Shown: positions 4,610 through 21,509 of the stretch, in pieces | Layout of the letters: each line of letters starts with the position of its first letter | Numbering within the stretch: position 1 is the stretch's first letter | DNA from: Candidatus Dormiibacterota bacterium | GTDB taxonomy: Bacteria; Chloroflexota; Dormibacteria; Dormibacterales; Dormibacteraceae | Length of the DNA: 21,509 bases | Assembly: GCA_003151665.1 (NCBI GenBank) | Contig: PLYD01000095.1 | Location: forward strand, 5,383 to 26,891 | Reading direction: 5' to 3' | Translations under genes and position numbers: made by a program | The notes under the pieces: generated by a model | What the model saw: only the letters and a program-made list of their open reading frames with translations | Database searches by the model: none | Told to the model about the DNA's origin: nothing

Positions 4610-6304
4610 GTGGCTGACGAGATGCGCCAATCGCCGGCGCGTCCTGTGGTGAGCGAAAGCGGCGCTCGCGGCTGGTTCGGCGCGGCGCTGTCCGGCCTCG
4701 CCCTGGTCACTGTCGCACTCATGCTGGTCATCCTTTTCGGCTTCCTGGACGCTATCCACTACAGCTCCATCAGGGACTTCTTCACCCCCGACCCGACGGC
4801 TGCCGCCGGCACCCTCGGACTGGTTGGTGGCGCTGAGGGTGTGACCCTGAGCATCGTCATCATCTCAGTCGTCTTCGGCATCCAGACGACGTCGTCGCGG
4901 TACTCGCCGCGGATCATGGGAATCTTCACCCGCAACCCGCTGAATGCGTTGGTGCTGAGCTTTGCGCTGGCCTCGATCCTCTACACGTTCCTGGTTCGCG
5001 CCGAGGTCAAGGTCAACTACGTGCCGACATGGAGCGTCGCCGCCGCCGTGATCCTGTCGCTCATCAACTTCGCGATCCTGCTGCCCTACGTCGGCTACAT
5101 CTTCGAAGTGATGCGCGCAGAGACCCTTGTCAGCAGCATCATGCGGCGCGCCAGGCGCGCGCTTCGGGCCGCGATCAACAGCAAGGACAGCCGCCGTCGC
5201 CGCGGTGAGCTCATGACCTCGATCGCCCAGGTGACCGACATCGCTTTCGGGTCGATCCAACTGCGAGACATGACGGTTTGTGTCCTCTGCATCGAGGCGC
5301 TGGGACAGCTCCTCGCCGAGGACTACCTCACGATCAAGAAGGACGTGAAGCTGGACTGGTTCAAGGTCGGCCATACCGAGCTGCCCGGAGCTTCGGATCA
5401 GATCCTGGCGGAGGTGAATCGAGCAGGGACCTGGTTCACCTACACGCTCATGTCCAGCTTCGTCGACATGATCGGTCTTACTCCGGTGCACAGGAAAGAG
5501 GCAGTACATGCCATTGCCGTGGCCACCCGCAACGTCGGGCTGGCGGCCATCGAGGTCGGAGACAAAGAGGTGGCCGAGCTCTGCCTCCGCTTCTTCAACA
5601 CCTACCTGCGCGCGGCGATCAACCAGTCGGCGCCGACTTTCGCGTCGGCGATCATGAACGAGTACCGCAGGCTCGCCATCGGCGCGCTCGAGTGGCGACC
5701 GGACCTCGCGATCGAAGCGGCTTCGCACCTTCTCCGTTACGGCCGCCACTTCGACGAGGCGGGCATGCCGGCGATCTATGGCGCCGCCGCCGAGGATGTC
5801 GCCGACCTCGCGATCGAGGCAGGGGGCCGGGACCCGCAGGTGACGCATCGCCTCGCGCTACTGATGGTCCGGAACCTGCTGGACCTTATTCCGAACGCCA
5901 GGCCGATCGGACTCAACGGACTGTTCAAGGGCGTGGCCAAGCTCACGTTCTGGGCCATGGCCGCTGACCAGAAGGACATCGCACACATCCTGGTCGAAGG
6001 CATCGCCGCCGCTCCGCCTGATTTCGTGGACGCGGCCCTCGACCGCATGGAATCGATGCAGAACGGCTTGTTCTGGGAGGTGAACGAGCGCGTCATCGCT
6101 TTCGACTGGGTCGAACAACCGCTGCGAGCCGAGATTCCCCGGCTGAGGGCTGCGCTGCGGCGCGCCAAGGCTTCAGGGCACACTCTGACCATCGAGCTGG
6201 AAAAAGCGATCCCCATCACCCAGGACCTGGTGAAGCCGGAGCCCAACGCGACTCCTGCGCCGGGCCAGGCGGTCGCGCCGGTCAGCGCGGAGCCGGCTGG
6301 TTGA
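4610..6304 (+). CDS. DUF2254-like integral membrane protein
   Basis: 564-aa protein with four predicted membrane helices near the N-terminus (about 22-48, 77-95, 112-130, 140-165), followed by roughly 370 mostly alpha-helical soluble residues and a Pro/Ala-rich tail. The stretch FGIQTTSSRYSPRIM after TM2 resembles the SSxxSPR motif of DUF2254, a widespread family of unknown function. The soluble part is longer than I expect for that family and I recognise no enzyme motif in it. The start is GTG at 4610 without a visible SD; ATG at 4622, four codons on, is an alternative. The 3' end overlaps the convergent globin gene by 23 bp. Membrane location is clear, the DUF2254 link is moderately supported, and the role is unknown. 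Confidence 0.72.
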   Translation: MADEMRQSPARPVVSESGARGWFGAALSGLALVTVALMLVILFGFLDAIHYSSIRDFFTPDPTAAAGTLGLVGGAEGVTLSIVIISVVFGIQTTSSRYSPRIMGIFTRNPLNALVLSFALASILYTFLVRAEVKVNYVPTWSVAAAVILSLINFAILLPYVGYIFEVMRAETLVSSIMRRARRALRAAINSKDSRRRRGELMTSIAQVTDIAFGSIQLRDMTVCVLCIEALGQLLAEDYLTIKKDVKLDWFKVGHTELPGASDQILAEVNRAGTWFTYTLMSSFVDMIGLTPVHRKEAVHAIAVATRNVGLAAIEVGDKEVAELCLRFFNTYLRAAINQSAPTFASAIMNEYRRLAIGALEWRPDLAIEAASHLLRYGRHFDEAGMPAIYGAAAEDVADLAIEAGGRDPQVTHRLALLMVRNLLDLIPNARPIGLNGLFKGVAKLTFWAMAADQKDIAHILVEGIAAAPPDFVDAALDRMESMQNGLFWEVNERVIAFDWVEQPLRAEIPRLRAALRRAKASGHTLTIELEKAIPITQDLVKPEPNATPAPGQAVAPVSAEPAG

Positions 6305-14099: not shown

Positions 14100-14828
14100 A
14101 TGAGGACGCGGATCCTGGTCGTCATCGGGGCCGTCGTGGCCGTGGTCGCCCTCGCTAGTGGGGCCGGCTATGTCTATTACTTCTCCGGACTTCGATCAGC
14201 GCCAGCGCAGCTCGGTTTGAGCGCGACCCCCATTGCAGCAACGAGTCCAACCGTGACGCCAGCGGCGACCGCCTCGCTGACCGGCAGCTGGACCGTCACC
14301 ACCGGTTCGCTCGCGGGCTACCGCATCAACGAGCTCTTCGTGGGCCAATCTTCCAAACACCAGGCGGTGGCGCGGACATCGACGGTGAGCGGTAGCCTGA
14401 CTGTGAGTGGCGACTCGACCGGCTACCAGGTGAGCTCGCTGACATTCACCGCAGACCTCACGAGCCTGCACAGCGTCGACACGGTCGCCGGACGCGACGT
14501 GACACAGCGGGACGGCGTCGTCAATCGCCAGCTCGACGTGCAGCAGTTTCCGACCGCGACTTTCACCGCCACTTCAGCATCAGTCCCCGGCGGAATTGCA
14601 AGCCAGGCGGTTGACGTGAGCGTCACGGGCAAGCTGACGATTCACGGTGTCACCAAGGACGTCACCATCAAGGCGAAGGCTCAACTCGTCGGCGCCAAGG
14701 CGGAGATCGCGGGCAGCACCTCGATCGCGATGAGCGATTACGGGGTGGCGCCTCCGCAGATGCCCTTCGTCACAGTGGATTCGACGCTGCTGCTCGAGTT
14801 CGACATCTTTCTGGTGCGGTCCGCCTAG
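14100..14828 (+). CDS. Membrane-anchored YceI-like domain protein
   Basis: 242-aa protein with an N-terminal membrane helix (residues 4-29) and a Thr/Ala/Pro-rich linker, then a YceI-like beta-barrel domain (about 60-240). Typical elements are GSWTVTTGSLAGYRINELFVGQSS, VDTVAGRDVTQRDG, FPTATFTATS, VTGKLTIHGVTKDV and a final beta strand. YceI proteins are extended lipocalin-like barrels that bind isoprenoid or other lipids outside the cytoplasm; the ligand here is unknown. The ATG has no visible SD. The stop is shared as CTAG with the convergent substrate-binding protein gene, 4-bp overlap. Domain call is confident. Confidence 0.9.
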   Translation: MRTRILVVIGAVVAVVALASGAGYVYYFSGLRSAPAQLGLSATPIAATSPTVTPAATASLTGSWTVTTGSLAGYRINELFVGQSSKHQAVARTSTVSGSLTVSGDSTGYQVSSLTFTADLTSLHSVDTVAGRDVTQRDGVVNRQLDVQQFPTATFTATSASVPGGIASQAVDVSVTGKLTIHGVTKDVTIKAKAQLVGAKAEIAGSTSIAMSDYGVAPPQMPFVTVDSTLLLEFDIFLVRSA

Positions 14829-16501
14829 CGCGTCTTGTGGAGGTGGATGAGCACCACCTCCCAGTCGGGAAGGTTCCAAGGAGCCGGGGCCGCATATGGA
14901 TTCGCCGCCGTTGGCCAACCGCCTAAATCCAGAGTCGAATACTCGTACCAGGCCACGCCCTCTGTGATCGGGATGACCGGAACGTCCTCCAGCATGATCG
15001 CCTCGACCTGCTTGATCAGGTCGTGCTGCTTGCCGGAGTCGGTGGTGGCGCCGAACTGGTCGAACAGGGTGTCCGCTGCGGGGTTGTTGTACCGGCCATA
15101 GTCTCCTGCCGCCGTGGCTCCGAGCGCGGCCGTGGTCGCGCTGTCCAGTGTGTTGCGAAGCTCGTAGTAAGGCGTCGGCCCGGGAGATGTGTTGAGCGAG
15201 CCGTACGCGAGGTCGAAGTTACCGGTGAAGAGCTTGTCGAAATACGTGCTGCTGTCGAGGTTTTGAGCCTTTAGCTCGATGCCGAGCTGCTTGAGGTTGT
15301 CCTGGATCGCCTGCACCGACGCGACCCAGTCCGTGTAGCCGGCGAGGTCGATGATTGAGAACGAAAGCTTCCTGCCAGACGAGTCCTGGTAGATCCCCGA
15401 GCTGCCCTTGGTGTAGCCCGCCTGCCGTAGGAGGCCGGCCGCCTTCGCCTGATCGAATTTGTAGCTGTACTTCGCCGCCTGCCCCTGGTCGATCCAGCTG
15501 TCGAACGTGGGCGACAGGACGCCGGTCTGGTTGCCGGGCGGCTCGTAACCGTACTCGCCTATCTGGGAGACGCTGCCACGGTCGATTGCATACGCAAAGG
15601 CCTGACGCACCAGCTTGTTGTTAAGTGGCGACCTCTTGACGTTGAACCAGATGTTGACGTTGTTGATCGGCGGAAACCAGTACTTGTTGTGTATGGGGTC
15701 CCTCGCACCGTAATAGGTGCCGATGTTGGGGATGAACTGGCCGCCCCACTGCGCCTGGCCTGACGCCAAGGCCAGGTTCGCTGGATCGTTGTCGACGAAA
15801 GCCGGGTAGTTGACCGTGTCGAGATATGGCACCCCTTTCTGCCAGTAAGTCGGGTTCCGGCTGTATCTGATGTTCTGCCCTGTGCACTCGCTCATCGTGA
15901 AAGGCCCGGTACCGACCGGAGCTATGACCACCTGTGTCGCGGGTTTCGCGTAGCCGGACCAGATGTGTTGCGGGACGATCGGGGTCTGGCTGGCGACCTG
16001 GTAGAAGCTCGGCACAGCAGGCTGCCTGAAGGCCATGATCACCTTGTCCGCGCCCTCCTGCTTGACGCTGGACAGCACCCGCCAATCCGACATTAGATCA
16101 AGCTCCGGGTATTCGTTCAAAAGATTGAACGTGAACACCACGTCGGCTGCAGTGAATGCCTGACCGTCGCTCCATTGGACCCCGTGGCGGATGTTGAAGG
16201 TGAGCGTCCTCGCATCGGCGCTCCACGAGTAATCGCTGGCGAGCCATGGTGTCCTCGTGTCGTTGAGAAGGTTGTCGTAAACCAGCGGTTCGTAAAGAAT
16301 GCCGAACGACTGGCCGCTCATTGGCGACTTATAAGGGTTGAAATCGCATTGCCAAAGTGCGCCCGTCTCGTTGGCGATCGTCACGGTGCCGCCCGTCATT
16401 GGCTTCGATGGCGTGGGACCGGACGTCGTGCACCCAACACAGGCCCCGAGCGCCAGGGTCAGGGACGCCAACCAGCCGACGACTCGACCAACCCGCCTCA
16501 T
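14825..16501 (-). CDS. ABC transporter oligopeptide/dipeptide-binding lipoprotein (SBP family 5)
   Basis: 558-aa extracytoplasmic substrate-binding protein of the OppA/DppA type (SBP_bac_5), which captures peptides, nickel or glycosides for an ABC importer. The start is ATG 16499-16501 (MRRVGRVVGWLASL), giving a lipoprotein signal with lipobox LGAC at 18-21 (a second Cys at 24). Family signatures follow: FNPYKSP, GILYEPLVY, WSADARTLTFNIRHGVQWSDGQ split around ADVVFTFN, VGTGPFTMSE, YAIDRGSVSQIGEYG. An upstream GTG at 16505-16507 is possible. No permease or ATPase gene is adjacent in the window, so it is an orphan SBP. It is divergent from a HEWMH protein over 103 bp. The substrate cannot be called. 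Confidence 0.92.
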   Translation of the reverse strand: MRRVGRVVGWLASLTLALGACVGCTTSGPTPSKPMTGGTVTIANETGALWQCDFNPYKSPMSGQSFGILYEPLVYDNLLNDTRTPWLASDYSWSADARTLTFNIRHGVQWSDGQAFTAADVVFTFNLLNEYPELDLMSDWRVLSSVKQEGADKVIMAFRQPAVPSFYQVASQTPIVPQHIWSGYAKPATQVVIAPVGTGPFTMSECTGQNIRYSRNPTYWQKGVPYLDTVNYPAFVDNDPANLALASGQAQWGGQFIPNIGTYYGARDPIHNKYWFPPINNVNIWFNVKRSPLNNKLVRQAFAYAIDRGSVSQIGEYGYEPPGNQTGVLSPTFDSWIDQGQAAKYSYKFDQAKAAGLLRQAGYTKGSSGIYQDSSGRKLSFSIIDLAGYTDWVASVQAIQDNLKQLGIELKAQNLDSSTYFDKLFTGNFDLAYGSLNTSPGPTPYYELRNTLDSATTAALGATAAGDYGRYNNPAADTLFDQFGATTDSGKQHDLIKQVEAIMLEDVPVIPITEGVAWYEYSTLDLGGWPTAANPYAAPAPWNLPDWEVVLIHLHKTR

Positions 16502-16604
16502 GCGCACACGGGCATCTTGGCAGCCATGTCCAATGGGATCGACTCGATAATCCTCGGTTAGCGCAGCGCGCGGTCGACCGGGATGCCTCGCGTACTCTTT
16601 GGCA

Positions 16605-17102
16605 ATGGTCGTCCGAAGCGAGCTGGCGGGCCTGTCAGACGCCGAAGCGAGGCGCATCTTCGATGGGCTTCCCCGTGCCGGGGACTACGAGGTCGTCGTC
16701 AAGCCGCTCCGCTACCGCACGCGACCGCATCTCGCCGCCCGATGCGAGTTCGAGGAGCACCGGATCGTGCTCCAGGTACCAGTGCCTTTCCGGCCGTTCA
16801 AGGAGCCTGTCATCTTCGCTGCGCGGCGCAAGCGCGGGCCCGGGATGCGCTTTGCGTGGGCGTCCGAGACGGTGTCTTTCCGGCTCAGGCGAGAAGTTCT
16901 CCGGTTCCTTTACTGCCATGAGTGGATGCACTGGTACCTGTACGAAGCGCTGGGCAAGCGATCCTCAGCCGAGACCGCGTGCGACAGGTTCGCGCTGAGA
17001 AACTTCCGGCGCCCTCAGGTCACTACGGCTGACGCCGACGAGGCCCTCAGGCGACGCCGGACGTCAGCCACCAGTACTCGCAGTCGGGCTCGAGTCGGCT
17101 GA
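16605..17102 (+). CDS. Small HExxH metallopeptidase-like protein
   Basis: 165-aa cytoplasmic protein without signal or membrane segment. The zinc-binding helix FLYCHEWMHWYLYEALGK has HEWMH at 105-109; the following SAETACDRFALRNF supplies Glu123 or Asp127 as a third ligand. Motif and spacing resemble SprT-like or similar minimal zincins, but the family is not certain. A basic C-terminal tail (RRRRTSATSTRSR) could bind nucleic acid or be artefactual read-through, as it lies over the convergent gene (39-bp overlap). ATG 16605 chosen; a TTG two codons earlier is possible. Divergent from the orphan peptide-binding lipoprotein. Confidence 0.72.
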   Translation: MVVRSELAGLSDAEARRIFDGLPRAGDYEVVVKPLRYRTRPHLAARCEFEEHRIVLQVPVPFRPFKEPVIFAARRKRGPGMRFAWASETVSFRLRREVLRFLYCHEWMHWYLYEALGKRSSAETACDRFALRNFRRPQVTTADADEALRRRRTSATSTRSRARVG

Positions 17103-17474
17103 CGAAAAGGCTGCGCGCATCTTCTTGCCGCGCAGGAGAGCGATCACCGCAAACGGCAGCGCGATATTCACCATCAGCGACACCGGACCCCGATTGGCGC
17201 CGATAGGAATCAACAGGAGGAGGGTCGAGCCCACAAGGCAGGTACCTTCCAGGGCCAGCGTCCACCGGCGCGAGCGGTGCGAGCGGCGCACGAGGCCGAT
17301 CGCCAGCAGACAGGCCAGCCCGGCGAGCACCCATGAAGCAATCCCCAGCGGCACCATCCAGGGCTCGCCCGCCAGCGCGAATGGAAAAGCGGAGAGGCCG
17401 GCCGAGAACCAGAAGGTCGCCTGCATAAGGAGGAGGACGAATGCCGCTTCGGGACGTGAGCTCGGGTCGCTCAT
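17064..17474 (-). CDS. Four-TM membrane protein, unknown function
   Basis: 136-aa integral membrane protein with four predicted helices (about 9-31, 37-62, 72-92, 96-114) and basic loops (RRSHRSRR between TM2 and TM3, RGKKMR after TM4). No recognised family. The ATG overlaps the stop of the preceding His-rich membrane protein gene (ATGA, 17471-17474), so the two are translationally coupled and probably work together. The same frame is open up to 17600, but an earlier start would run deep into the neighbour. The 3' end overlaps the convergent HEWMH gene by 39 bp. Confidence 0.75.
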   Translation of the reverse strand: MSDPSSRPEAAFVLLLMQATFWFSAGLSAFPFALAGEPWMVPLGIASWVLAGLACLLAIGLVRRSHRSRRWTLALEGTCLVGSTLLLLIPIGANRGPVSLMVNIALPFAVIALLRGKKMRAAFSSADSSPTASTGG

Positions 17475-18553
17475 GCGCTCGCCTGCACGGCAGCGACCGC
17501 GCGCGGATCGATATCCACCGCGAAGGGTCCGCTTGGGTTGTTGACGATCCACACGTGGAGCATCGGTGCCACGCTGATGTCGATAGAGCCGACGGGGCAC
17601 GTTGCAAACGGCGTCATGAGGCTGAACTCAAGACCGAGCGGGGTGACACAGATGTTTTCGTGCTCGTGCCACGCGGTCAAGGGACCGCCCGGATCCGGGC
17701 CGAACTGGCCGATGTGCTGCATCTGGAACATCGCGCCGATCAGCACGGGACCGCGCCGAGTGTTGGCGTAGACTAGACCTTGGGGCCGCTGCGGATCCAT
17801 CACATAGCCGGCCTTGACGTATGCGTCGTTCATCCAGTGCGTCGACGGAAGGTTGCCAGGGCCGCCAGGCCGATAGCCGGCCTTCCAGGCCAGGCGCCAG
17901 TCCTCGTACGGGGCGATGGCGGCCTTGGTCTCGGCGTAGAGCTGCGCCGCGGCCGCCTCCTGCTCAGGCGTGGCGACCGCGTTGGTGGTCTGTAGGACGG
18001 CGCCAATGTGAACGTGCCGGGCGCCGGCTGTGGACAGGTCGACGCCCCAGATCGTGGCGCCGCTGACCACCGTAAGCAACGGCAGGCTGGTCGCCAGCGC
18101 CGCCCAGTACCATGCGCGGTCACGGGGACGCGCCTCACCCCTCACTGGGACCAGGACGAATCCGAGCGCGGTCAGCTCGAGCAGCTTGGTGGCCAGCGCG
18201 ACCTGGTCCGGCGTGTCGAAGCCGAAGGCGATGAAAACGAGGTATCCCAGCAGCGTCGCTACGAGCAAGACCGATGACGCGAGCCTCCACCACCGCCAGG
18301 TGAACGCCGCCGCGAGGACGATGTAAGCCACTCCGTTCCCGACGAATAGCGCAGCGGTGATGGGTTCGCCGAGATGGGTCGGAACAAGGCCGAGGTGGAT
18401 CGCACCGGCCATCGCCATCAGGATGGCGGCGGCGCGCATGGTCCCGGGTACCGCGCGATGCGCCGGCATAAGGCGCATCACGATCAGGGCGATCGGAAGG
18501 GCTATCAGGCCGGCGTACAGACCGATTGCGTGATCAGGTGAAATGTCGAACAT
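17471..18553 (-). CDS. Six-TM membrane protein with C-terminal His/Cys-rich extracytoplasmic domain, unknown function
   Basis: 360-aa protein. The N-terminal half has about six membrane helices (10-30, 39-58, 64-84, 91-111, 118-137, 149-169). The C-terminal half (175-360) is soluble with strongly patterned residues: THWMNDAYV (His239), FQMQH (His280), GGPLTAWHEHENIC (His296, His298, Cys302), Cys319-Pro, and MLHVWIVNNPSGPFA (His333). I recall the same WHxHxNxC and MxHVW...GPFA plan in uncharacterised actinobacterial proteins, from memory and unchecked. The His/Cys cluster suggests metal or haem binding outside the membrane; this is inference. It starts with ATG 22 bp after the histidine kinase stop and is coupled to the four-TM gene, so it is likely part of the two-component operon. 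Confidence 0.75.
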   Translation of the reverse strand: MFDISPDHAIGLYAGLIALPIALIVMRLMPAHRAVPGTMRAAAILMAMAGAIHLGLVPTHLGEPITAALFVGNGVAYIVLAAAFTWRWWRLASSVLLVATLLGYLVFIAFGFDTPDQVALATKLLELTALGFVLVPVRGEARPRDRAWYWAALATSLPLLTVVSGATIWGVDLSTAGARHVHIGAVLQTTNAVATPEQEAAAAQLYAETKAAIAPYEDWRLAWKAGYRPGGPGNLPSTHWMNDAYVKAGYVMDPQRPQGLVYANTRRGPVLIGAMFQMQHIGQFGPDPGGPLTAWHEHENICVTPLGLEFSLMTPFATCPVGSIDISVAPMLHVWIVNNPSGPFAVDIDPRAVAAVQASA

Positions 18554-18575
18554 GCCGTCATCGTCGGACCCCTAC

Positions 18576-19964
18576 CTAAGAGGTCCGTAAGAAAGGCAGG
18601 TCGACGAAAAAGCCTGCGCCGCCGTCCGGGCTGCCGGCCGCGACGATGCGGCCGTGATGCTGGTCGGTGATCCAGCGAGCGATGGAAAGGCCGAGTCCCG
18701 CACCGTGATCGGTCTGGGCGCCCCCTGATCGCGTGCGCGCTGCGTCGGACTTGAAGAAGCGCTCAAAAACACGGTCACGATCATCGATTGCGATTCCCGA
18801 CCCGTCGTCGCCCACCATCAGACGTGCCCAGTCGCCCTCGACCGCCAGCTGCACGGTGATCTTCGAGCGAGCGAACCGGCTGGCGTTGTCGATCAGGATC
18901 CAGAGCAGCTGTCGGAGCGCGTCTTCGTCGCCGGCCACGCTGGCATCGGCTGCGTCCACCACGACTGTCATGTCGGGATGTAGCGAAGCCGCCTGGCGGC
19001 ACACCCCGGTGATCAGCGGTTTGAGCTGGATCGGCGCCAGCACGAGCTGAAGACCGGAGTCAGCGCGCGCGAGAGTGAGCATTCGGTCGACGAGGCGGGC
19101 CATTCGATCGCTCTCGGCGACGATGTCTCCGGCCGCGGCGCGGCGAACCGAATCGTCGACGGCCGGACCCTGGGACAGCAACCCTGCGTTCCCTTGAATC
19201 GTCGTGAGTGGTGTGCGGAGCTCATGCGAGGCATCGGCCACGAACCGTCTCTGTGACTCGAACGCATCCTGCAGCTGATCGAGCATCCGGTTGAAGCTCG
19301 CGGCCAGCAAGGCCACCTCATCTCTGCTGCGCATGCCGGACAGACGGCGGCCGAAGTCACGGGTCCGGCCGATATCGTCAGCCGCGCCCGCGACGTCTTT
19401 CAACGGCTTGAGCGCCCGGCCCGCGACCAACCACGAAGCGATCAGGGCAGCCAGCAGGGTTGGCACTCCCGAAATCACTAGGAAGCCGACGATGCCCGAT
19501 AGATTGGACTGCGGCACACGCGTCGACTGTCCCGCCACGACGAAGCCGTGCGGGAATGGCTGAGCGTAGATACGGAGCTGCGGGCCGGCGTTGCGGTCGC
19601 CTTGCGTCGCGAACGCGCTGCCCATGCGCGCTGCGTCGTCCAGGATTTGCAAAGGAACGGCCGGGGGCGCGCCGTTCAGCACGCCAGTCGTGTAGATCAG
19701 CGTGCCGTCCGAGCTCAGCACCTCGACGAATACGTCGGTGCTGCTGCGAAGGTCGACCGGGGCGATCACGGGTCGCGGCGCCAGATCAAGGTTCGGGGTG
19801 GTTGCCAGGGCCCCGATCGCAGCTCCCGCGCGGGCCCGAAGGTCCCTGTCCTGGTTGGTATCGACGCTGCGAGACACAAGCCCGTAGATGGCGAGTCCGA
19901 AGATCACCAACGCCAGCGCGACGACGGCGGCCCCAAACAACGCAAGACGGACGCGCAGCGACAC
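18576..19964 (-). CDS. Sensor histidine kinase (HAMP-HisKA-HATPase)
   Basis: 462-aa membrane sensor kinase. Two membrane helices (about 6-29 and 157-180) flank an extracytoplasmic sensor of about 125 residues, followed by HAMP (180-233), HisKA with phospho-acceptor His247 in DASHELRTPL, and HATPase_c with N box (Asn360 in IDNASRF), G1 DDGSGIA (386-392), F box FERFFKS and G2 GAGLGLS (421-427). It autophosphorylates and passes phosphate to the adjacent response regulator. I chose GTG 19962-19964: GAGGG six bases upstream gives a good SD and the stop of the regulator is 2 bp away. The frame is open to 20213, inside the regulator gene, but that extension is not credible. The signal sensed is unknown. 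Confidence 0.94.
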   Translation of the reverse strand: MSLRVRLALFGAAVVALALVIFGLAIYGLVSRSVDTNQDRDLRARAGAAIGALATTPNLDLAPRPVIAPVDLRSSTDVFVEVLSSDGTLIYTTGVLNGAPPAVPLQILDDAARMGSAFATQGDRNAGPQLRIYAQPFPHGFVVAGQSTRVPQSNLSGIVGFLVISGVPTLLAALIASWLVAGRALKPLKDVAGAADDIGRTRDFGRRLSGMRSRDEVALLAASFNRMLDQLQDAFESQRRFVADASHELRTPLTTIQGNAGLLSQGPAVDDSVRRAAAGDIVAESDRMARLVDRMLTLARADSGLQLVLAPIQLKPLITGVCRQAASLHPDMTVVVDAADASVAGDEDALRQLLWILIDNASRFARSKITVQLAVEGDWARLMVGDDGSGIAIDDRDRVFERFFKSDAARTRSGGAQTDHGAGLGLSIARWITDQHHGRIVAAGSPDGGAGFFVDLPFLRTS

Positions 19965-19966
19965 GA

Positions 19967-20635
19967 TCAGCCCTCGCGAAGCGCATAACCCGCGCCGCGA
20001 ACCGTGTGCAGGAGGCGGGCCTCGCCTCCCTCTTCCAACTTTTGGCGCACATAGCCGACGTAGACGGCAACCACGTTGTCTCCTTCCGGCTCGTCTTTCC
20101 AGACCGCTTTCAGCAACTGTTCTCGCGTCAGCACCTGGCGCGGATGACGAAGGAAGTGCTCGAGCAGGTCGAACTCGGTGGCCGTGAGCACGATCGGCCG
20201 AGCTCCTCGCCACACCTCATGGCTTGCCGGCTCGAGCACCAAGTCGGCGAATCTCAGGTGGTCGGCTGGAGCGGTCCTGCGCAGGAGCGCGCGGACCCGA
20301 GCCAGCAGCTCCTGGTACGCGAAGGGCTTGACGAGGTAGTCGTCGGCGCCGCTGTCGAGCCCTTTCACTCTTTCCTCCGTGCCGCCCAGGGCCGTGAGCA
20401 GCAGGATCGGAAACTGGGCGGTCGCGCGCAGTCGGCGGCAAACGCCGATGCCGTCGAGGCCGGGCAGCATCACATCAAGGACCACGAGGTCGGGCGGCTG
20501 CTCGCGCGCTCGCTGCAGGGCCTCCAGACCATCGACCGCCGACTGGACGTCGTGCCCTTCAGCAGTCAGCACGCGCTCGAGGGTGGCGGCGAGGCGGCTG
20601 TCGTCTTCGACGATGAGGATCCTCGGCCGGCCCAT
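19967..20635 (-). CDS. OmpR/PhoB-family response regulator
   Basis: 222-aa transcription factor. The receiver domain (1-118) has acidic pocket Glu10-Asp11-Asp12, phospho-acceptor Asp54 in VVLDVMLPG, Thr81 and Lys103 in DYLVKPF. The winged-helix DNA-binding domain (about 130-222) shows LTATEFDLLEHFLRHPRQVL, AVWKD and TVRGAGYALREG at the end, typical of the MprA/PhoB class. ATG 20633-20635 has no SD, and an AT-rich promoter lies immediately upstream, so the mRNA may be leaderless. It is the first gene of the operon followed by its kinase and two membrane proteins, and is likely to control them. Confidence 0.95.
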   Translation of the reverse strand: MGRPRILIVEDDSRLAATLERVLTAEGHDVQSAVDGLEALQRAREQPPDLVVLDVMLPGLDGIGVCRRLRATAQFPILLLTALGGTEERVKGLDSGADDYLVKPFAYQELLARVRALLRRTAPADHLRFADLVLEPASHEVWRGARPIVLTATEFDLLEHFLRHPRQVLTREQLLKAVWKDEPEGDNVVAVYVGYVRQKLEEGGEARLLHTVRGAGYALREG

Positions 20636-20644
20636 ATGTAGCGA

Positions 20645-20684
20645 TATATAAGCCGGTTGTATGGATTAGATAAGACTGTGCCAA
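20645..20684 (-). promoter_or_regulatory. Putative promoter(s) of the two-component operon
   Basis: On the minus strand two overlapping sigma-70-like candidates exist in an AT-rich island: TTGGCA (20679-20684)-17 bp-TACAAC (20656-20661), and TTATCT (20668-20673)-17 bp-TATATA (20645-20650). The second would start transcription within a few bases of the regulator ATG (20635), giving a leaderless mRNA, which fits the missing SD. Prediction only. Confidence 0.5.
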
Positions 20685-20691
20685 GCTCCGG

Positions 20692-20767
20692 GGCCACCTC
20701 CGGCCACCTAAGGGTGGCCGACTCCCCGCGGAAACGAGGAGTGGGTTCGGCGCCTACAGGGGGCGCC
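20692..20767 (-). terminator. Cluster of hairpins between transglutaminase gene and two-component promoter
   Basis: CGGCCACC-TAAG-GGTGGCCG (20701-20720) is a perfect 8-bp stem with a 4-nt loop. GGCGCC (20749-20754) pairs with GGCGCC (20762-20767), the latter touching the transglutaminase stop. ACTCC/GGAGT (20721-20725, 20738-20742) could form a third weaker stem. A second GGCCACC (20692-20698) could compete for GGTGGCC. No T-run follows. The likely role is termination or 3'-end protection of the transglutaminase mRNA; a regulatory leader is less likely because it lies upstream of the predicted two-component promoter. Confidence 0.5.
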
Positions 20768-21509
20768 TAGATCGCGTACTCCACCTCGGTGAGGGTGACG
20801 CGCTTGTGCGTCACCAGACGGCCGGCCACGCGCGAGATGTAAGACCCGGATGTCGGCGCCACGTCCGAATAATCGGCTCCGACCGCGATCGTCACGTAGT
20901 CCAGGCCGCCCCTGCTGGCATGAGTGGGATCGAACGTCCACGCGATGGCATCTCCGCTGCCATCGCCCACCGGCAGGACGACCTCCACCCACGCATGAGT
21001 TCCGCCCTGCCCAACCAGGTGGCCGGAGACATAACGGGCAGGCAGCTGGGCCGAACGGCAGACCGCAAGCATGATGTGTGCGTAGTCCTGACAGACCCCA
21101 AAACCCTGGGCGAGCGCCTCGGCGGCAGTGGTGTGCACGCCTGTGAGGCCGCCCTTGTAGTGCATCGACTGGTAGACCCAGTCGTTGATCCGGTCGGCAA
21201 GAGGCAGTCCCCAATCAGCGGACTCGGCGAGCTCGGCAGCCGCTCTGACCATACGCGCGTCGGCGCAGGTGAGCTGAGTTGCCTCGAGAAGGTAGCTCTG
21301 CATCGCCCAGCCGGAGGGCAAGCGGTGCAGCTCGTGCGAGCTGCGCTCGACGGTAACCTCGGCAAGAAACTCGATGGCCGAGCTCACGCGCGGGGCAAAG
21401 GCATTGACGATCACGTTGCCGAACCTGTCCTGCTGGTTCTCGAACCGCACTCCGTCGACTCCGGCCGACACCCTGTGGCGGAGGCGCCGCTGGTCGCCAA
21501 ACCGCTCCG
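20767..21509 (-). CDS. Transglutaminase-like (papain-fold) protein, N-terminus outside window
   Basis: The frame is open to the right edge, so at least 247 residues are visible and the start is missing. A bacterial transglutaminase N-terminal beta domain (RFENQQDRFGNVIVNAF and following) precedes the papain-like core with Cys in GFGVCQDYAHIML, His in GGTHAWVEV and Asp in FDPTHA, forming the Cys-His-Asp triad. Such proteins are proteases, amidases or cross-linking enzymes; in bacteria they often accompany alpha-E and circularly permuted ATP-grasp proteins or MoxR/DUF58 systems, which could lie beyond the edge. No membrane segment is visible. A GTG at 21469-21471 exists but would remove family-typical residues. 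The stop is followed by a hairpin cluster. Confidence 0.9.
   Translation of the reverse strand, partial: ERFGDQRRLRHRVSAGVDGVRFENQQDRFGNVIVNAFAPRVSSAIEFLAEVTVERSSHELHRLPSGWAMQSYLLEATQLTCADARMVRAAAELAESADWGLPLADRINDWVYQSMHYKGGLTGVHTTAAEALAQGFGVCQDYAHIMLAVCRSAQLPARYVSGHLVGQGGTHAWVEVVLPVGDGSGDAIAWTFDPTHASRGGLDYVTIAVGADYSDVAPTSGSYISRVAGRLVTHKRVTLTEVEYAI

Follow-up and report, generated by a model that had tools for sequence, protein, structure and literature searches.

What do two membrane proteins of no named family contribute to an operon that also encodes a two-component regulatory pair? The question is raised by a stretch of 21,509 nucleotides (the window) of contig PLYD01000095.1 from a Candidatus Dormiibacterota bacterium, in which four genes follow one another on the minus strand. 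These encode an OmpR/PhoB-type response regulator (RR; 222 residues, 19967-20635; Response_reg and Trans_reg_C domains with Pfam E-values of 2.3e-28 and 5e-24), a membrane histidine kinase (HK; 462 residues, 18576-19964), a protein with six predicted transmembrane (TM) helices and a C-terminal, probably extracytoplasmic domain (MP; 360 residues, 17471-18553), and a partner with four predicted TM helices (TM4; 136 residues, 17064-17474). The HK gene is read from a GTG start; the start of the longer open reading frame, at 20213, falls inside the RR gene. RR and HK are separated by 2 bp (19965-19966) and HK and MP by 22 bp (18554-18575), and the MP and TM4 genes overlap in an ATGA (17471-17474), an anatomy that an earlier, sequence-only reading had given exactly to the base. 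The four-gene arrangement (hereafter the cassette) is a conserved operon, carried by soil bacteria of at least two phyla, and we consider it probable that it constitutes a self-contained sensing-and-response system of the cell envelope, with a metal-binding MP and autoregulation.

Evidence for a functional unit comes from the recurrence of the arrangement. Homologous loci were taken from related genomes (L021-L060) and from 84,980 species genomes, a scan of which confirmed 139 stretches, 80 of them kept (L061-L140). A profile of the outer domain gave 120 matches over these 120 loci, from which 36 duplicates and three incomplete frames (L080, and L130 twice) were dropped. Fifty proteins combine the TM part with the outer domain, and for 42 of them 3 kb or more of upstream sequence is available. 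RR and HK precede MP in 39 of these 42 loci, while TM4, as recognized by profiles built from some of the loci counted, lies directly beside MP in 41 (after it in 30, before it in 10 and in the same frame in one). In the single miss (L094) a masked run separates MP from a TM4-like stretch, which continues in the same frame. Among the eight MP proteins with less than 3 kb upstream, an HK is visible in four and a TM4 in six. Recurrence on this scale exceeds chance and upholds the earlier claims of a single operon and of linkage between the homologues and two-component genes. The absence of a promoter or terminator between the kinase and MP genes, which that reading had made a test of its proposal, was likewise seen in a consensus scan of 16500-21000, a weak test given that shuffles yield only 0.5 and 1.8. 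Loci with RR, HK, TM4 and MP occur in Dormibacterota, in Actinomycetota (Acidimicrobiia and Kineosporia) and in one record titled Chloroflexota; the Dormibacterota label of many records titled 'Chloroflexi bacterium' follows from their grouping with so-named records. Candidatus Dormibacteraeota is among the names attached to close protein matches. A record titled Gammaproteobacteria (L087) encodes an MP of the Dormibacterota type, and is probably a wrongly named metagenome-assembled genome (MAG). The remaining 31 counted proteins carry the outer domain only: neither RR and HK nor TM4 accompany any of the 24 that have 3 kb upstream, and among the other seven L079 has a TM4 after it, but L079 is an MP cut by a contig end.

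The case for a metal site rests on the outer domain of MP (residues 190-360, a confident model; 17474-17986, minus strand). The six membrane-type helices lie within residues 6-174, and the loop before the last helix contains four K/R residues, every other inner loop one, and the outer loops between helices none. This charge pattern predicts that the C-terminal domain lies outside the cell, and backs the extracytoplasmic placement of the His/Cys residues proposed earlier. Within the domain (all coordinates on the minus strand), H239 (17837-17839) is kept in 292 of 294 sequences, H296, H298 and C302 of the H296-x-H298-x3-C302 motif (17648-17668) in all 294, C319 (17597-17599) in 292, and M331 and H333 of the M331-L-H333 motif (17555-17563) in 290 and 294 respectively. 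From the set of residues that had been singled out on the window sequence, H239, H296, H298, C302 and H333 are thus retained (292-294 of 294), and His280, kept in only 83 of 294, falls outside it. Two further features had been overlooked: the H53-x6-H60 pair at the outer end of the second TM helix (18374-18397, minus strand), with H53 kept in 222 of 225 sequences and H60 in 222 of 226, and H180-x-H182 (18008-18016, minus strand), invariant in 35 close sequences, in the linker that leads to the C-terminal domain. The linkers of 47 of the 50 MP-type proteins and 15 of 30 domain-only relatives (62 of 80 together) contain an HH or HxH. These observations suggest that the outer domain of MP is likely to hold a metal site. 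As side observations, an Armatimonadetes record (L115, 1220-2823) has two neighboring genes that each encode the outer domain, and two relatives (L129 and L140) have Met-rich stretches ahead of it; such stretches occur in some copper-binding proteins.

The same conservation might be expected of an enzyme or of a haem or redox protein, in which the His and Cys residues would be catalytic or haem-binding, or the two Cys would act as a redox switch. The invariance of these residues is reminiscent of active sites, and W295 (293 of 294) as well as several Gly, Leu and Met positions of the domain are also conserved. However, the searches brought up no enzyme family or fold match for the domain, and two of the 294 sequences lose C319 yet keep C302, which argues against a constant disulfide switch. 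We dropped a purely redox-driven disulfide switch of the Cys pair as a candidate, and regard the broader enzymatic or redox explanation as unlikely.

Neither membrane protein could be placed in a known family. No Pfam or NCBIfam family lies above its cut-off for MP or TM4, searches of Pfam, NCBIfam and PDB sequences gave nothing for the outer domain, fold searches brought up no match to a cupin or other solved structure, the whole MP has no PDB sequence match, and PHROGs holds nothing for the outer domain or TM4. Among the anti-phage defense models of PADLOC, MP and TM4 match none, and RR and HK give only weak partial matches. The membrane part of MP weakly resembles DUF7475 (PF24287; 19.3 bits against a cut-off of 31.3), the outer domain lying outside this profile; relatives score higher (L096, 35.3 bits; L092, 30.8 bits), and in some homologues the domain is above the cut-off or present as a precomputed annotation. 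No paper under the name DUF7475, and no description of this operon, was found in the literature searched, of which coverage was partial. Hence MP and TM4 are indeed uncharacterized as far as the family libraries go, and the word 'undescribed' for the operon relies on these libraries together with that partial literature.

The kinase itself offers little that could hold a metal. Its domains, like those of RR, match Pfam models above cut-off, placing the pair in the OmpR family, and its architecture is TM - outer sensor - TM - HAMP - HisKA - HATPase_c. The outer sensor spans about 127 residues between the two TM helices, close to the 125 or so estimated before. No His or Cys is conserved in it across 27 aligned kinases, and the window's own sensor has one His and no Cys. 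Metal or redox sensing by the kinase through such residues therefore finds no support, and MP rather than the kinase would hold a metal. Of the earlier proposal of a metal- or redox-sensing envelope module, the conserved operon, the two-component linkage and the invariant outer His/Cys residues stand, and detection by the kinase's own sensor does not.

It could be asked whether the cassette is simply a heavy-metal resistance operon of the CusRS/CopRS kind whose target has escaped annotation. These systems likewise pair an OmpR-type regulator with a HAMP-HisKA kinase whose sensor lies between two TM helices, and their operons encode envelope proteins. In NCBIfam the kinase is in fact matched best by TIGR01386, at 193.7 bits, and the regulator has a match to TIGR01387 at 190.7 bits, but both scores are far below the respective cut-offs of 292.55 and 279.2. 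CusRS/CopRS kinases have conserved His ligands in the outer sensor, unlike the window-type sensors with their lack of conserved His or Cys, and MP and TM4 match no known copper or efflux family; in a comparison with CopC, CopD and YcnJ, neither protein gave a Pfam CopC or CopD match at E <= 1. An ordinary resistance operon is thus improbable.

TM4 appears to be tied closely to MP. Profile comparison makes the window-type TM4 a homologue of the four-TM protein in the actinobacterial loci (98.6% probability by hhalign, with control comparisons at 0.4 to 8.5%), and the gene order differs between groups: TM4 follows MP in the Dormibacterota loci and precedes it in ten others (L111, L114, L116, L117, L122, L124, L126, L134, L135 and L137), whose titles read Acidimicrobiia, Acidimicrobiaceae, Kineosporia or plain 'bacterium'. 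In L096, the record titled Chloroflexota, a single 446-residue frame has a TM4-like start that runs into MP, an apparent fusion of the two. Its TM4-like part is recognized far better by the Dormibacterota profile (91.7%) than by the Acidimicrobiia one (6.0%), and scores 26 bits in a profile search. Because the two genes overlap, swap their order and appear fused in one record, we infer that TM4 and MP form a complex.

The kinases, too, bear the mark of the association. When 12 genomes outside Dormibacterota were searched in full with the window kinase, the top match in eight of them was the kinase beside MP (L096, L117, L134, L111, L124, L137, L122 and L126). Its lead can be wide, as where it scores 357 bits and the second of 78 matches 138; in L126 it is small (173.6 against 169.8 bits). 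In the other four, the best match lies at contig breaks (L120 and L133) or a contig edge (L135), or the genome has no distinct match (L114). In a maximum-likelihood tree of 50 kinases, a single clade with support 96 unites 27 cassette kinases, two contig-edge kinases and six paralogues and excludes the 15 others. The closest paralogous pairs are those of L171-L174 (kinase 42-48% and regulator 57-61% identical; L175 and L176 are also counted with them). These serve a protease and ABC-exporter-like operon rather than MP-TM4, the neighbors common to the four loci being an HtrA-like protease, a protein of HlyD type and a MacB-like ABC pair (Pfam matches for L171). It thus appears that a kinase of the cassette type was duplicated and put to another use. 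In a set of 61 related genomes, MP was counted as present in 27, from matches reaching the TM part at no less than 43% identity (weak TM-only and domain-only matches being left out), and a strong kinase match (E <= 1e-80) in 30. Both occur in 26 genomes, MP only in one (G008), the kinase only in four and neither in 30 (Fisher p = 5.6e-12, a value that ignores the relatedness of the genomes). In the kinase-only set, G041 and G045 have pairs that resemble the paralogue, G051 does so by identity only, and the match in G028 ends at a contig edge.

Loss of the cassette has also been joint. G001, the nearest relative genome compared, lacks the segment corresponding to 17120-20596 of the window, almost exactly the four genes (L170, G001:C33:239500-250500, junction near 5086), and its flanks align at 93-97% (one 97-base piece at 87%). 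What remains is the start of RR followed by the end of TM4, with the upstream operator described below kept, and the whole cassette is thus lost in this genome. These data bear on the simplest alternative, that MP and TM4 are carried along next to a common kinase pair without being functionally tied to it. Three loci with TM4 and MP but no RR and HK upstream (L036, L114 and L135), and the duplicated kinase pair that serves another operon, would fit it; the linkage in 39 of 42 loci across phyla with a changed gene order, the joint loss and the shared kinase clade make mere co-location most improbable.

The region before the RR start codon points to the regulatory output. Here the window has a putative promoter/operator element, TCTTATCTAATC-N11-CTTATATATC (20643-20675, minus strand), in which CTTAT is repeated 22 bp apart. 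Sixteen upstream regions share, with variants, TCTTATsnAATC followed by CTTATATATC or CTATAAATC directly before the RR start. ATAAGA is found in 15 of the 16 and GATAAGA in 10, whereas none of 50 simple shuffles exceeded 10 and six, respectively. Patterns derived from these regions were then searched in 25 genomes, where matches at cassettes are expected and rarity elsewhere is informative. TCTTATNNAATC gave 14 matches, 10 before cassette regulators, one at the G001 remnant and three elsewhere, with none for the reversed control; CTTATN14-24TATAWMTC gave 15, of which 13 lie before cassettes, one at the remnant and one elsewhere (G009:C189), again with none for the control. The 15 genomes of the set with RR and HK are accounted for by the latter pattern (13), by TCTTATNNAATC (G003) and by a variant seen in the upstream comparison (G019). 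G008 and eight genomes with neither cassette nor remnant have no match to CTTATN14-24TATAWMTC (G012 has one to TCTTATNNAATC). Because the operator is rare elsewhere in these genomes, the regulator looks dedicated to its own operon, on a search that would miss weaker sites, and we infer autoregulation through this element. That the CTTAT repeat is a plain promoter only was a candidate we dropped, as its rarity argues for a specific regulator; there is yet a -10-like TATA inside, and its position about nine bases before the ATG suggests a leaderless transcript.

Taken together, we propose that TM4 and MP would form a complex in which the outer domain of MP (H239, H296, H298, C302 and H333, and also C319, M275 and M331) would bind a transition metal, a soft-ligand metal such as copper being the first guess, and in which H53/H60 and the linker HxH might pass the metal on or complete the site. 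The kinase would respond to the state of the envelope, possibly that of the MP-TM4 complex itself, and the phosphorylated regulator would bind the 33-nt element and raise mainly its own operon, whereby the amount of MP-TM4 would follow demand. Several points count against this picture. No metal, enzyme or resistance gene was found to neighbor the cassette constantly, because of which the identity of the metal is a guess. The invariant His and Cys residues could be catalytic or structural, and the genome loci were gathered with patterns containing WHxH and MLHVW, which favors those residues in the counts, though 233 further proteins were gathered without such patterns. Domain-only relatives adjoin genes of oligopeptide-type ABC systems, a hint that the ligand could be a peptide or chelate, and no more than 15 of 30 have the His pair in the linker; domain-only relatives with another N-terminus (L047, L048, L051-L058 and L127) lie near SBP_bac_5 and oligopeptide-permease clusters, as checked with Pfam for L127 only. 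The cassette kinases alone form no clade, HtrA-linked paralogues being nested among them and the L096 kinase grouping with these (support 82). Finally, TM4 and MP lack RR and HK upstream in the three loci (3 of 42) noted above.

The last point bears on whether MP-TM4 is an effector at all, or mainly a co-receptor, an accessory protein to which the ligand binds and which controls the kinase. In favor of a co-receptor are the linkage and the shared kinase clade, the few other strong operators visible, and the kinase sensor, from whose lack of conserved His and Cys it follows that a metal signal would need another binder. Yet TM4-MP without the pair suits an effector, and a co-receptor with no output besides itself makes little sense unless the regulator has weak, overlooked targets, so that this explanation is possible but doubtful. 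The three loci slightly favor an effector regulated by the pair, and the sensor slightly favors co-sensing; both roles can hold together in the sensing-and-response system that we prefer. Only quite tentatively would we go further and view MP-TM4 as a metal receptor-effector complex of an unsolved fold whose loaded state is read by the kinase, so that sensor and regulated product would be one and the same in a closed four-component loop of Dormibacterota, Actinomycetota and Chloroflexota.

Comparable arrangements are known, as far as the parts of the literature consulted describe them. In the HbpS-SenS-SenR system of Streptomyces a kinase and regulator act alongside an extracytoplasmic protein that is linked to iron, haem and redox stress (PMC4991794, PMC3754957), but HbpS is a secreted octamer, whereas MP has six TM helices and a second membrane partner. 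In QseG-QseE (PMC12691602) and VraG-GraS (PMC7951975) the kinase is under the control of, or receives input from, an additional envelope protein. The likeness to all three is one of description, and for the latter two it consists in the extra envelope protein, contact of MP or TM4 with the kinase being hypothetical. An envelope protein encoded with the pair, as expected of a three-component system, is found in 39 of the 42 loci.

The outer domain has no model in the versions of Pfam and NCBIfam searched and no detected solved relative, yet its potential ligands are practically invariant. The conserved operator is rare in the rest of each genome, and the regulatory loop can therefore be tested directly. 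If a metal were confirmed, groups that are known mainly through metagenomes would gain an envelope module for handling metals. Kineosporia sp. A_224 (L137), the sole strain-titled, non-MAG record among the 80 scanned genome loci, has the full cassette, and a cultured host may thus exist.

Some features around the cassette are also worth recording. Between the operator and the upstream transglutaminase-like gene (20767-21471) lies a perfect inverted repeat, GGCCACC-CTTA-GGTGGCC (20702-20719, minus strand), which may be a terminator without a T run. The convergent neighbor on the plus strand (16599-17102) has an HExxH-like HEWMH motif and no Pfam match above cut-off; it resembles a small metalloprotease, and it lies beside the cassette in nine loci, the window included. 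Farther away, the genes for a YceI-like protein (14100-14828, plus strand) and an SBP_bac_5 binding protein (14825-16657, minus strand) overlap by 4 bp at their ends.

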